From Chitinophaga pinensis (GTDB lineage: Bacteria; Bacteroidota; Bacteroidia; NS11-12g; UBA955), in NCBI GenBank assembly GCA_945871905.1, contig CAMBXL010000001.1, positions 310,001 to 374,000 on the forward strand: 64,000 nt of DNA, in the 5' to 3' direction. The translations under genes were made by a program, and so were the position numbers. Under the pieces are notes generated by a model. That model was given only the letters and a program-made list of their open reading frames with translations, ran no database searches and was not told the origin of the DNA. Shown one piece after another: positions 664 to 34,484 of the stretch (position 1 is its first letter; every line of letters begins with the position of its first letter).

Positions 664-3201
664 TTATCTGATTAGATGAAAGGTTCCACGGAACCATCTC
701 TCTACATTGTCGCAACCCACATATTTGGTGTAAAATACATAAACATCTTGTGGTGCTAAATCGCCTTTTATAGTTCCATCCCAAGTAACCGAAGGGGTAT
801 TGGATTCGAAGATTTGTTCACCCCATCTGTTGTATAATCTTAGTTGGTAATCAGCACCAGGGTCACTGTATTTATTGCCTGGATACACATCGTTAATATT
901 GTCTCCATTTGGCGTAAATGCATTTGGCATAAACAGGTCCGAAGGGAGCGCATTAGGGTCTTCTTTAATTTGGATAGAATCTGATATGATACAACCATTT
1001 TTGTTTCTAATGGTTACGGTGTATGTGCCTTCTTGTGTTACAACAATTTGCTGTGTTGTGGCACCTGTATTCCATAAGTACTCTTCCATATTGTCTGCTG
1101 CAATTAATGGATATCTTGAGGATAAACAAATGACAGTATCGCTACCCAATCCACCATCTATTTCTGGATATTGAATAATGTTAATAGTATCAGAAGCCAG
1201 ACATCCTTCTTCTGTTTCAATGTTTATAAAATACTTGCCAGGGGCGGATACAAATAATTGTTTACTAGTAATTTCCCCGTTCCACAAGTAGGATTTGTAA
1301 TTTCTTTTGGGGTCTAATGTTCGAGAGATAGGACCACAATAAAAGGTATCTGGTCCCAAATCTAATCCAATAAAGTAAAAGTCAATATCGGCAGTGTCGT
1401 ATATTGTACAAAGTTTGTTTGCCGCGGTTACAATATAACGTCCCCTTTGGGAAACAGTAATTTGTGGAGTTGTATCACCTCTATTCCATAAATATCTAGT
1501 TTCTGCTTGAGTTTGAGTGTGGAAATTTTCGCCATCTAAAATGGTTCCTGTACCTTCGCAAATAGAGGTGTCTCTTAGTCGGGTTCTTGGAGGTGGATAT
1601 AATACAAAGGTAATGCTGTCTTCGCCTAAACAGCCATTTTGATTAACTACTTTTACCCAATATGACCCAAGCGAAGGGATAAAAACGGAGGCGTCTGTTG
1701 TATTGTCGTTCCACAAATAGGAACGATAACCATCTTTTCCTTTGTATGTAAATTGAACAAAGCTGTCTCTACATATGACGGAGTCTGGGCCTAAATCCAA
1801 CTTACTTAAATCATTGAAAATATCAATGGTGTCTTTAGAAGAGCAAGGGAAATCAGTAGCTGTAACAATGTATCTTCCTGCTTTGTTTACAGATAGATTT
1901 CTTGTTGTTTCGCCGGTGTTCCAAACATAACTTAAATTGGGTGGATTGCTAATTAATGTAGTTGTAAAAGGGCCACAAAATAAAGTGTCTTTAGGCAATT
2001 GAGTTTTAAATCTCTTCTTTACTTCTATTTCATACCTGAATGTATCCGAGCATAAGTTTGTTTTTGCAACAAGTTGGATTGTGTAGTTGCCGGGAGCGTT
2101 ATATCTAAAGGAAGGATTTGTTTGTATTGAGGAGTTGTTGCTGCTGTTAGGGTCTCCAAAATCCCACAAATAGCTTGTTCCTCCTGAACTTCTATTTTGG
2201 AATAGGACTAAGTCGGATTCGCAGCTTAAACTAGGCGCAAAGAAAGATGATACTACGTCAAAAACACATTCACTAATGTTAAACTGATAATCTCTTTTGG
2301 TTTCGCCTATTAATACACCTTTTCTATATTCCAATACTTTTACTCCAATTACATAATTTCCGGTTCGGTCTGGTGTTAGTGTCAATTTCCCTGTTCTGCT
2401 ATTGACACTTAATGTAGGTTGACCATTAATTTGAAAGTTGGTGTTATAATTGCTTGTCCACTGTACTTTTCTACTATTATCATCAAAAGGGTAGGTCGGA
2501 GGTTTAGTATTCACTGGATCAAAAATGTTGGGTTTAACGCCAGTAGGACTTCCAACGTCATCATCTCCACCTAAAAAAGGTTGATAAAGTTCGTAAACCA
2601 ATGAATCTCCATTGTCATCTATGGCGCTGTGGTCAAAATTTAAAGGTGCATTTGTGCATAAAAAATTGGGGGGTAAATATTTAAAAAAAGGAGATGAGTT
2701 TCCCATTTTTACATCCTTAATTTCTGTCCAATAAGTGGCTCCTACATCGTCAGGAAACATAATATTGTCAATAATTCTGTTTCTGCAACAACGTTCAAAT
2801 GTAATAGTGTAACCCCTGCCAGAATTATCTGGTAATGATAATTGAGTCGTGTATGTATAACGAATGACACATTCAGTTGGTTTATTTTTAATGCAATTGT
2901 AATTTAAGTCAGCAATTTTTGTAGGATTGAAACCTTGGATGTTTCTTTTGCTCAGTGAAAGTAAAGCACTGTTCTTGTTTCTGTTGTCAAAAACGTGAAT
3001 GGTGATGCCCTCAACATCATCTTCAATAACACCCTCAAATGCATTTTTACAGTCAAAATAAACATATAAGGTAATGTTATATAGGTAGTTATTGCCACTT
3101 CTTCCTGCATATTTATACATCATTTCACCCCCTACAATGTGAGAAGCGCTTGATTTAAATGCGAATAAAACACACAATATGACGGTGACAATTAACCTCA
3201 T
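664..3201 (-). CDS. Secreted T9SS type-B (gliding motility-associated C-terminal) protein with PKD domain
   Basis: 845 aa. It has an N-terminal signal peptide ending near ASHIVGG, a region of about 300 residues of unassigned fold, and a PKD-type beta-sandwich at about residues 315-395 (YLWDFGDP motif, NPSFRYNAPGNYTIQL). Several repeated Ig-like units follow, with the pattern LGPD..C...YLWN.G.....V...G.Y.V.....GC..SDTI. The C-terminal ~90 residues contain FTPNGDNINDV and YNRWGEQIFES, the CHU_C/TIGR04131 domain that directs type IX secretion and surface anchoring. It is probably an adhesin or cell-surface protein; the ligand is unknown. A possible -7 element (TAACTTTG on the minus strand, 3219-3226) lies just upstream. 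Confidence 0.88.
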   Translation of the reverse strand: MRLIVTVILCVLFAFKSSASHIVGGEMMYKYAGRSGNNYLYNITLYVYFDCKNAFEGVIEDDVEGITIHVFDNRNKNSALLSLSKRNIQGFNPTKIADLNYNCIKNKPTECVIRYTYTTQLSLPDNSGRGYTITFERCCRNRIIDNIMFPDDVGATYWTEIKDVKMGNSSPFFKYLPPNFLCTNAPLNFDHSAIDDNGDSLVYELYQPFLGGDDDVGSPTGVKPNIFDPVNTKPPTYPFDDNSRKVQWTSNYNTNFQINGQPTLSVNSRTGKLTLTPDRTGNYVIGVKVLEYRKGVLIGETKRDYQFNISECVFDVVSSFFAPSLSCESDLVLFQNRSSGGTSYLWDFGDPNSSNNSSIQTNPSFRYNAPGNYTIQLVAKTNLCSDTFRYEIEVKKRFKTQLPKDTLFCGPFTTTLISNPPNLSYVWNTGETTRNLSVNKAGRYIVTATDFPCSSKDTIDIFNDLSKLDLGPDSVICRDSFVQFTYKGKDGYRSYLWNDNTTDASVFIPSLGSYWVKVVNQNGCLGEDSITFVLYPPPRTRLRDTSICEGTGTILDGENFHTQTQAETRYLWNRGDTTPQITVSQRGRYIVTAANKLCTIYDTADIDFYFIGLDLGPDTFYCGPISRTLDPKRNYKSYLWNGEITSKQLFVSAPGKYFINIETEEGCLASDTINIIQYPEIDGGLGSDTVICLSSRYPLIAADNMEEYLWNTGATTQQIVVTQEGTYTVTIRNKNGCIISDSIQIKEDPNALPSDLFMPNAFTPNGDNINDVYPGNKYSDPGADYQLRLYNRWGEQIFESNTPSVTWDGTIKGDLAPQDVYVFYTKYVGCDNVERWFRGTFHLIR

Positions 3202-33566: not shown

Positions 33567-33573
33567 ATCTTTT

Positions 33574-33604
33574 TTGTAAATTAAAAGAGAACTTCTTACT
33601 TTTG
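33574..33604 (+). promoter_or_regulatory. Promoter of the tRNA region
   Basis: TTG at 33574-33576, 20-base spacer, and TACTTTTG at 33597-33604 give a full match to the Bacteroidota TTG-N19/20-TAnnTTTG consensus. It is followed by CAATCCCG, as is common in front of stable RNA genes. It would transcribe the broken tRNA copy and then the intact tRNA. Confidence 0.75.
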
Positions 33605-33656
33605 CAATCCCGTTAACAAGTTGTAGATTTGTTAAAAATGTTGGGGCCCTTAGCTC

Positions 33657-33674
33657 TCACGCCCTACAGCGTGA
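33657..33674. repeat. 18-base hairpin inserted in the D-loop of the broken tRNA
   Basis: TCACGC and GCGTGA are perfect reverse complements around the loop CCTACA. It replaces ATT of the parental tRNA D-loop, with the flanking tRNA bases intact on both sides. Confidence 0.75.
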
Positions 33675-33693
33675 CGGTTAGAGCAACTGACTC

Positions 33694-33711
33694 TCCCGAT
33701 AGCTATCGGGA
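33694..33711. repeat. 18-base perfect palindrome inserted in the anticodon loop of the broken tRNA
   Basis: TCCCGATAGCTATCGGGA is fully self-complementary. It replaces ATAAT of the parental tRNA and removes the anticodon. A degenerate relative may lie at 37863-37884. Confidence 0.8.
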
Positions 33712-33756
33712 CAGTGGATACATGGTTCGACAACCATTAAAAAATGTCAAATGTTG

Positions 33757-33830
33757 GGGCCCTTAGCTCATTCGGTTAGAGCAACTGACTCATAATCAGT
33801 GGGTGGCTGGTTCGATTCCAGCAGGGCCCA
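33757..33830 (+). tRNA. tRNA with anticodon CAT, probably tRNA-Ile2 (lysidine-modified)
   Basis: 74 bases fold into a complete cloverleaf: acceptor GGGCCCT/AGGGCCC, D-arm GCTC/GAGC, anticodon stem ACTGA/TCAGT with loop CTCATAA, and T-arm GCTGG/CCAGC with loop TTCGATT. The discriminator is A. CCA is not encoded (ACCCC follows). The CAT anticodon could be Met or Ile2. The acceptor pairs C4-G69 and C5-G68, the GGnCCCTTAGCTC start and the GCTGGTTC..CCAGCAGGG T-arm are closest to E. coli tRNA-Ile2, which TilS modifies to read AUA. Confidence 0.88.
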
Positions 33831-33836
33831 CCCCTT

Positions 33837-33865
33837 AAAAAAACCTCCTAATCGGAGGTTTTTTT
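33837..33865 (+). terminator. Rho-independent terminator after the tRNA
   Basis: AAACCTCC (33841-33848) pairs with GGAGGTTT (33854-33861) around TAATC, with further A:T pairing and a T-run. It lies between the tRNA and the GIY-YIG gene, so the latter needs readthrough or its own promoter. Confidence 0.85.
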
Positions 33866-33878
33866 ATTTACTCTTTTT

Positions 33879-34175
33879 ATGAAAGAAATTTGTGCATACA
33901 TATTGTATTCACTAAAATTAGACAAGTACTATATTGGTGCCTGTCAAGACGAATTGCAAAAAAGAATTGACAATCATAATACTGGTTTTTATGGTTCAAA
34001 AACATTTACATCAAATGCGAATGATTGGATTTTATATTTAAAAATAGAAACCCAAGATTACGCTCATGCAATAAGAATTGAACGTAAAATTAAATCGATG
34101 AAGAGTAGGGTTTATTTAGAGAATCTTAAAAAGCATACAGTATTAGTAGAAAAGGTGTTTAATAATACTTTGTAA
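33879..34175 (+). CDS. Small GIY-YIG endonuclease-domain protein
   Basis: 98 aa, a stand-alone GIY-YIG nuclease domain. The GIY-like strand is AYILYS (residues 6-11), YIG is in KYYIGA (17-21), the catalytic arginine is in LQKRIDNHN (R29), and the metal-binding glutamate is in IRIERKIKSMKSR (E68). This is the UvrC-N/UPF0213-like short class. All core catalytic positions look present, so it is probably active. There is no DNA-binding extension. It lies 48 bases after an intact tRNA and between two fragments of a broken tRNA copy. That position suggests a tRNA-associated mobile or repeat-processing nuclease rather than UvrC-type repair; this is inference. Confidence 0.88.
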   Translation: MKEICAYILYSLKLDKYYIGACQDELQKRIDNHNTGFYGSKTFTSNANDWILYLKIETQDYAHAIRIERKIKSMKSRVYLENLKKHTVLVEKVFNNTL

Positions 34176-34484
34176 CAAAATGCAACTGACTCTCCCTTTC
34201 TCACTCGCATCTTGCGAGTTAAAAACACCTTTACCTCCTGTATCTCTTTGATGTGTTTTCATATTTCTGTTGTTTTGTTATTGAGACATTAATAATCAAA
34301 TACAAATGTATTTATTTTTCAAATTCATTTTACATTTATTAATAACACCAGAGGCAGAGTTGAAAATGACTCACAAGATGTGAGCGAGAAAGATTTATCA
34401 ATCATATACTCTAAATCCCAATTATTTACATACGTTTTTTTTATTAATCGCTTTAAAATGATAGTTTTGCGTCTTTAAATCAAG
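34176..34484. other. 309-base noncoding stretch
   Basis: It holds the tRNA fragment and the inverted repeat pair at 34182-34392, then an AT-rich stretch with a -7-like TAGTTTTG at 34462-34469 that could start transcription of the next gene (no clear -33 TTG). No open frame of note was seen. Confidence 0.7.
34182..34392. repeat. tRNA-fragment repeat plus imperfect inverted repeat pair downstream of the GIY-YIG gene
   Basis: GCAACTGACTCTCCC (34182-34196) is identical to 33683-33697 inside the broken tRNA. It runs straight into a 24-base arm (34196-34219) containing the hairpin ACTCGCA-TCT-TGCGAGT. The reverse complement of 34369-34392 matches that arm at 21 of 24 positions, and that second arm itself contains CTCACA-AGA-TGTGAG. 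The 149 bases between the arms carry no gene. Confidence 0.7.

Follow-up and report, generated by a model that had tools for sequence, protein, structure and literature searches.

Short palindromes in the loops of broken tRNA copies that flank intact tRNA genes in Bacteroidota

In the 64-kb stretch of DNA analysed here (hereafter the window) an intact tRNA-Met gene is preceded by a broken copy of itself, in which two loops have been replaced by palindromes of 18 bases each. Which process could place short palindromes so exactly into tRNA loops, and why should this be seen in a copy that lies beside an intact gene? The shared blocks and the two loop-placed palindromes, already pointed out in the initial annotation, were confirmed to the base by alignment with the intact gene, an elongator tRNA-Met (CAT anticodon, 33757-33832; all features given here are on the + strand). 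ARAGORN and Rfam recognised the intact gene alone and called no tRNA in the broken copy, which spans 33644-33740, between a promoter and the intact gene. It is preceded by a duplicated 8-nt leader (AAATGTTG, 33636-33643, second copy at 33749-33756) and begins with the 5' strands of the acceptor stem and the D-stem (GGGCCCTTAGCTC, 33644-33656, identical to 33757-33769), the first identity block thus being 21 nt long with the leader included (33636-33656 and 33749-33769). Palindrome 1 (TCACGCCCTACAGCGTGA, 33657-33674) then replaces ATT of the D-loop, and is followed by a second identity block of 19 nt (33675-33693 and 33773-33791) that consists of the D-stem 3' strand and the anticodon-stem 5' strand. 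Palindrome 2 (TCCCGATAGCTATCGGGA, 33694-33711) replaces ATAAT of the anticodon loop, and the copy ends (33712-33740) with what is left of the 3' strand of the anticodon stem (CAGTG) and with a hairpin that resembles a T-arm (ATGGTTCGACAACCAT, 33722-33737).

A promoter is indeed present ahead of the broken copy, as had been claimed, but its type is better read as that of Bacteroidota, whose sigma factors use the consensus TTTG/TAnnTTTG: the two elements are TTTG at 33573-33576 and, after a spacer of 20 bp, TACTTTTG at 33597-33604. Since by sequence reading there is no -7 box of this type between the broken and the intact tRNA-Met, the two are probably transcribed together. On the 3' side, the intact gene is followed by an intrinsic-terminator-like hairpin (an inverted repeat at 33836-33866) and directly by a small gene for a predicted GIY-YIG nuclease of 98 amino acids (33879-34175; PF01541, 30.9 bits against a cut-off of 22.6). 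Behind this gene lie a further 15-nt tRNA-Met fragment (GCAACTGACTCTCCC, 34182-34196, identical to 33683-33697), made up of the anticodon-stem 5' strand and the first four bases of palindrome 2 (the TCCC end), and beside it a third palindrome (ACTCGCATCTTGCGAGT, 34203-34219) that folds at -8.8 kcal/mol.

Hairpins of this kind are scarce in the window. With G+C of at least 50%, a stem of at least 6 and a loop of at most 6, there are 13 in the 64 kb, and three of these (palindromes 1 and 2 and the one at 34203-34219) fall within 560 nt at the tRNA-Met locus. When 2 or 3 mismatches were allowed, the window had no further site similar to palindrome 1 or 2, except for one 3-mismatch site at 3125, the expectation from shuffling being 0.00-0.02. 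Genome-wide they do recur: pattern searches of the same 2.5-Mb genome yielded seven copies of palindrome 2 and 13 occurrences of the palindrome 1 stem (TCACGC N6 GCGTGA), with none for the backward controls in either case. Of 39 relatives, 16 have palindrome 2 as well, and viral contigs contain it in 37 stretches. The palindromes also occur singly, away from tRNAs. The dispersed palindrome has a fixed length of 18 nt, with T and A at its two ends in 90 of the 93 sites outside tRNAs and, being found at unrelated sites of one genome and in its relatives, resembles in this respect the short palindromic mobile repeats. Direct repeats of at least 3 nt flank 29% of the palindrome sites, compared with 12% in controls.

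About a third of 92 distinct, unbiased palindrome sites are hairpin loops. Nine of these sites are D-arms and 12 lie in one other hairpin repeat, CCCTG-GTCGAAGGG, whose uninterrupted form we take to be CCCTGAGCTTGTCGAAGGG and in which the palindrome repeatedly occupies the loop position (L213-L222, L243). Among the remaining 71 sites, 10 are in hairpin loops (stem of at least 5) against 4.5 expected, and with so modest an excess the idea of strict hairpin-loop targeting outside tRNAs was dropped. A phage source of the tRNA insert was likewise rejected: although on two viral contigs (L013 and L030) the D-loop of a tRNA-Met is occupied by the palindrome, the motif TAGCTC followed by the palindrome was found on none of the viral contigs.

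That motif joins part of a D-arm to the palindrome, and can be used to ask where such copies lie with respect to their intact genes. When some 85,000 species genomes were scanned for TAGCTC directly followed by palindrome 2, 97 stretches were returned, nearly all labelled Bacteroidota (one is labelled Chlorobiota and two just "bacterium"), and the loci reduce to 99 distinct sites. The pattern selects for D-arms and leaves the position of the intact gene unselected, yet the cognate intact tRNA was downstream at 76 of the 99 sites (61 tRNA loci, 16 isoacceptors) and solely upstream at none, three "upstream" flags being due to further tRNAs of a cluster whose 5' ends are alike. Sites that have no downstream cognate are mostly at contig ends or, in one Saprospiraceae genome, in a non-tRNA repeat. 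The palindrome lies at a median distance of 46 nt from the intact gene, usually about 20-130 nt. The arrangement is also present in isolates of Aequorivita, Salinimicrobium, Gelidibacter and Gramella.

Two further surveys were unselected. When any insert of 15-24 nt was allowed in a conserved D-arm, five matches were obtained in 247 genomes, and all five were palindromic or nearly so. A tRNA-by-tRNA survey of four genomes (129 tRNA genes) showed a loop palindrome in 13 of 14 upstream partial copies, counting the tRNA-Asn copy of the genome studied here, which has one palindrome mismatch; the palindromes differ in sequence (TCCCGATAGCTATCGGGA, TCCGCCGCGGCGGA, TCCCGAAGCATCGGGA, TCCCGCAGTTACATGCGGGA, TCTCGGCTTAGCCGAGA and others). 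This genome has broken copies at four of its tRNAs, namely Met, fMet (two in tandem), Asn and Ser. In one relative (G012) the same anticodon loop of tRNA-Met contains TCCCGATAACTATCGGGA, and the copy there extends to a promoter of its own, whereas in another (G001) the orthologous leader is reduced to a T-loop remnant, so that a broken copy can evidently decay. In several loci (L108, L116, L125, L149) the spacer between the broken and the intact tRNA often has half a palindrome (ATCGGGA), perhaps the remnant of a second insert. The tRNA-Ser leader occurs both with and without the broken copy in a single assembly (G000:C14:54844 and G000:C17:106; L315, L316); this pair (C17 compared with C14) is the sole candidate for an empty site, and a doubtful one, as it may reflect a strain variant or an assembly effect.

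The palindromes are therefore confined neither to the tRNA-Met locus nor to random sites: besides being dispersed at non-tRNA sites, they turn up again in loops of other broken tRNAs. This recurrence, across Bacteroidota, in many tRNAs and at independent loci, lends support to the proposal of the initial annotation that some process places palindromes in tRNA loops. Its claim that random decay would not produce such a copy also holds up well, given the scarcity of hairpins in the window, the absence of control matches and the exact loop placement seen in so many tRNAs.

We put at roughly 0.55 the probability that the broken copy arose as a spare, incomplete tandem duplicate of the tRNA gene next to it, and that short palindromic repeats took over its hairpin loops. 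A duplication with one end inside the tRNA gene would yield either a 5' fragment on the upstream side or a 3' fragment on the downstream side, and this is the arrangement that is seen; because one intact copy of the tRNA is always left, such partial duplications would be tolerated. It follows that 3' fragments should be found downstream of intact tRNAs. A search for T-loop palindromes in 49 genomes, mostly picked for carrying the palindrome, revealed this mirror image: about 13 independent 3' fragments with a T-loop palindrome lie downstream of an intact tRNA, and none of the sites in these 49 genomes has its cognate solely downstream. The other sites of this search comprise three that are ambiguous (in one tRNA cluster), one at a contig end and three that are not tRNAs. 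Some of the 3' fragments sit behind a GIY-YIG gene, as does a tRNA-fMet copy (L404) that has palindromes in its D-, variable and T-loops and has kept its anticodon loop.

The most extensive case is that of Bacteroidetes bacterium UKL13-3, which has a complete genome (CP012155.1; L105). Its intact tRNA-Asn is preceded by 11 tandem 5' units of 80 nt, each with a D-loop palindrome, and is followed on the 3' side by about eight tandem units of 410 nt, which combine a GIY-YIG gene and a terminator with a 3' half that has its palindrome in the T-loop. The placement rule is a simple one: 5' fragments are upstream and have palindromes in the D- or anticodon loop, and 3' fragments are downstream and have them in the T-loop.

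The recurrent proximity of GIY-YIG genes suggests how the duplications might arise. All four small GIY-YIG genes of the genome studied here are downstream of tRNAs (Met, fMet, Asn and Gly/Leu; 33879-34175 in the window, and L202, L203, L206, L207). The 98-amino-acid product predicted in the window, with its GIY-YIG domain and its small free-standing gene beside a tRNA, appears to be of the SegB type. SegB is a homing endonuclease of the GIY-YIG family that T-even phages encode as a free-standing gene (PMC13096335, citing Brok-Volchanskaya et al. 2008); the SegB of phage T6, encoded beside tRNA genes, drives tandem amplification of tRNA-segB by microhomology recombination (PMC13096335). The likeness to the arrangement described here is striking. 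The two situations share a GIY-YIG gene beside tRNA genes and tandem repeats of tRNA plus nuclease, the latter represented here by the eight tandem GIY-YIG and 3' tRNA-copy units of UKL13-3; the microhomology that the nuclease gene has at its 3' end with the tRNA (PMC13096335) can be compared with the 15-nt tRNA fragment after the GIY-YIG gene of the window. They differ in that the Bacteroidota cases are on a bacterial chromosome, involve partial rather than extra full tRNAs and have loop palindromes. The cutting motif given for SegB, RAWTSGAAC (PMC13096335), reads GTTCSAWTY on the opposite strand and in that form, by our own reading, fits the conserved T-loop of tRNAs (in the window GGTTCGATTCC, in the tRNA at 33757-33832). 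A GIY-YIG gene acting in cis was not supported as a general cause, since such genes were found beside 4 of 43 broken copies and beside 2 of 39 other tRNAs of the same loci (p about 0.7), with no enrichment; if it takes part, the nuclease would therefore need to do so in trans, or just in some cases.

On the duplication reading, then, small tRNA-linked GIY-YIG nucleases may stimulate the duplication by cutting, as SegB of the phage does. Palindromes of 14-20 nt would subsequently enter single-stranded hairpins at their apical loops, by insertion or in exchange for the loop, and so give the pattern observed; at least some of the loop palindromes recur at many other sites. Because a loop insertion would be lethal in a tRNA that is needed, the insertions would be confined to the spare copies. 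Once there, the palindromes would break up the similarity to the intact gene into stretches of about 20 nt and might in this way protect the spare copy from recombinational loss. If so, it would be clear why nearly all the surviving copies have one.

One may also consider that the broken copy, the palindromes and, where present, the GIY-YIG gene form one tRNA-targeted mobile element, which homes into the tRNA, restores an intact copy and is bounded by the hairpin-capped fragments, so that the palindromes would belong to it instead of having arrived later. The near-perfect association of palindromes with partial copies, in 13 of 14 cases, would fit such an element, as would the position of a GIY-YIG gene between the intact and the broken copies in L106, L107, L404, L406 and UKL13-3, and the tRNA fragment ending in TCCC after the GIY-YIG gene of the window, which resembles the segB/tRNA-Tyr microhomology (PMC13096335). 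We nevertheless consider it unlikely: the tRNA part agrees with that of the local gene across 16 isoacceptors, and therefore arises in place rather than being carried in, most broken copies have no GIY-YIG gene nearby, and the palindromes also occur on their own away from tRNAs.

Alternatively, the broken copy could be a functional leader RNA (a decoy, an attenuator or a processing signal) whose hairpin-capped loops are under selection. Lying between promoter and tRNA it would be co-transcribed, its RNA folds well (z about -2 to -3), and the Asn leader copy is common to many species. In the 5' array of UKL13-3, moreover, the palindrome is constant in 11 of 11 copies, against variation at 7 of the 32 spacer positions, although the array copies were recently amplified, so that no change at 18 palindrome positions is weak evidence. 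A leader role is hard to reconcile with the sporadic presence of the copies (the orthologous leader of G001 being that T-loop remnant alone), with palindrome sequences that vary freely among copies and, above all, with the mirror copies downstream, often behind a terminator, where such a role is impossible; it thus seems quite improbable to us.

The palindromes, being short, dispersed and hairpin-forming, might also be REP elements of the usual kind, mobilised by a RAYT (Y1 transposase) with a preference for hairpin loops, and with tRNA copies as one of its targets. REP elements, marked by GTAG/CGTC, are similarly short palindromes, dispersed and in some cases within genes, that are possibly moved on single-stranded DNA (PMC3733652). 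In contrast to them, the palindromes described here lack the GTAG/CGTC tag, form a perfect, tail-less 18-nt unit, do not flank the RAYT-like gene of the genome and are found strongly in the loops of tRNA copies. The genome does encode a RAYT-like protein (NF047646, 63.7 bits against a cut-off of 80; C7:37222, L208 1228-1749), but this sole candidate has on both sides its own unrelated, partly duplicated 47-nt inverted repeat (GTGGTTGG...), and no transposase could be tied to the palindromes. GTAG is within 12 nt of 5 of 103 sites and CGTC of 7 of 103, where about 7 would be expected by chance. Membership in the REP/RAYT system was accordingly rejected, and we regard this explanation as very unlikely. 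As for an assembly artefact or the chance decay of a tRNA duplicate, the genome is a draft of 31 contigs, but with the same arrangement in the complete chromosome of UKL13-3 and in isolates, and with exact loop placement recurring in many tRNAs, an artefact is ruled out and the explanation as a whole has next to no probability.

With the REP tags absent and the RAYT-like gene bordered by a different repeat, we infer that the palindromes enter the duplicated copies by a hairpin-directed, single-strand insertion whose products survive only in spare tRNA copies. A bolder version, which we offer tentatively and think rather less than an even bet, is that Bacteroidota possess a machinery that recognises hairpin loops of single-stranded DNA (or RNA) and swaps the loop for a palindrome, with redundant tRNA halves beside intact genes, together with tRNA-linked GIY-YIG nucleases, as its main amplifying site. 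The palindromes would then be a new class of minimal mobile element.

Very short mobile repeats that have no known transposase, some of them inside RNA genes or other repeats, are familiar from the small dispersed repeats of cyanobacteria and the palindromic elements of Rickettsia. These belong to other phyla and have other sequences, and we know of no description for them of exact insertion into the loops of spare tRNA copies flanking an intact gene. An intact tRNA with a tRNA fragment nearby is also found at integrative-element attachment sites; here, unlike there, the palindrome of an upstream copy is usually about 20-130 nt from the intact gene with no integrase in between, and the copies lie on both sides of that gene and have their loops replaced. 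Literature searches yielded nothing relevant on the palindrome sequence or on palindromes in bacterial tRNA loops. The components resemble known kinds, their combination and the exact loop placement match none that we know or found, and the phylum-wide pattern is apparently undescribed.

The finding bears on two loose ends, namely how very small palindromic repeats that have no transposase choose their sites, and why GIY-YIG nucleases adjoin tRNA genes. The rule that governs the placement of fragments and loops is simple enough for testing in culturable Flavobacteriia. Spare tRNA copies are in this respect a natural recorder, since insertions into loops survive only there and the known cloverleaf gives their exact positions.
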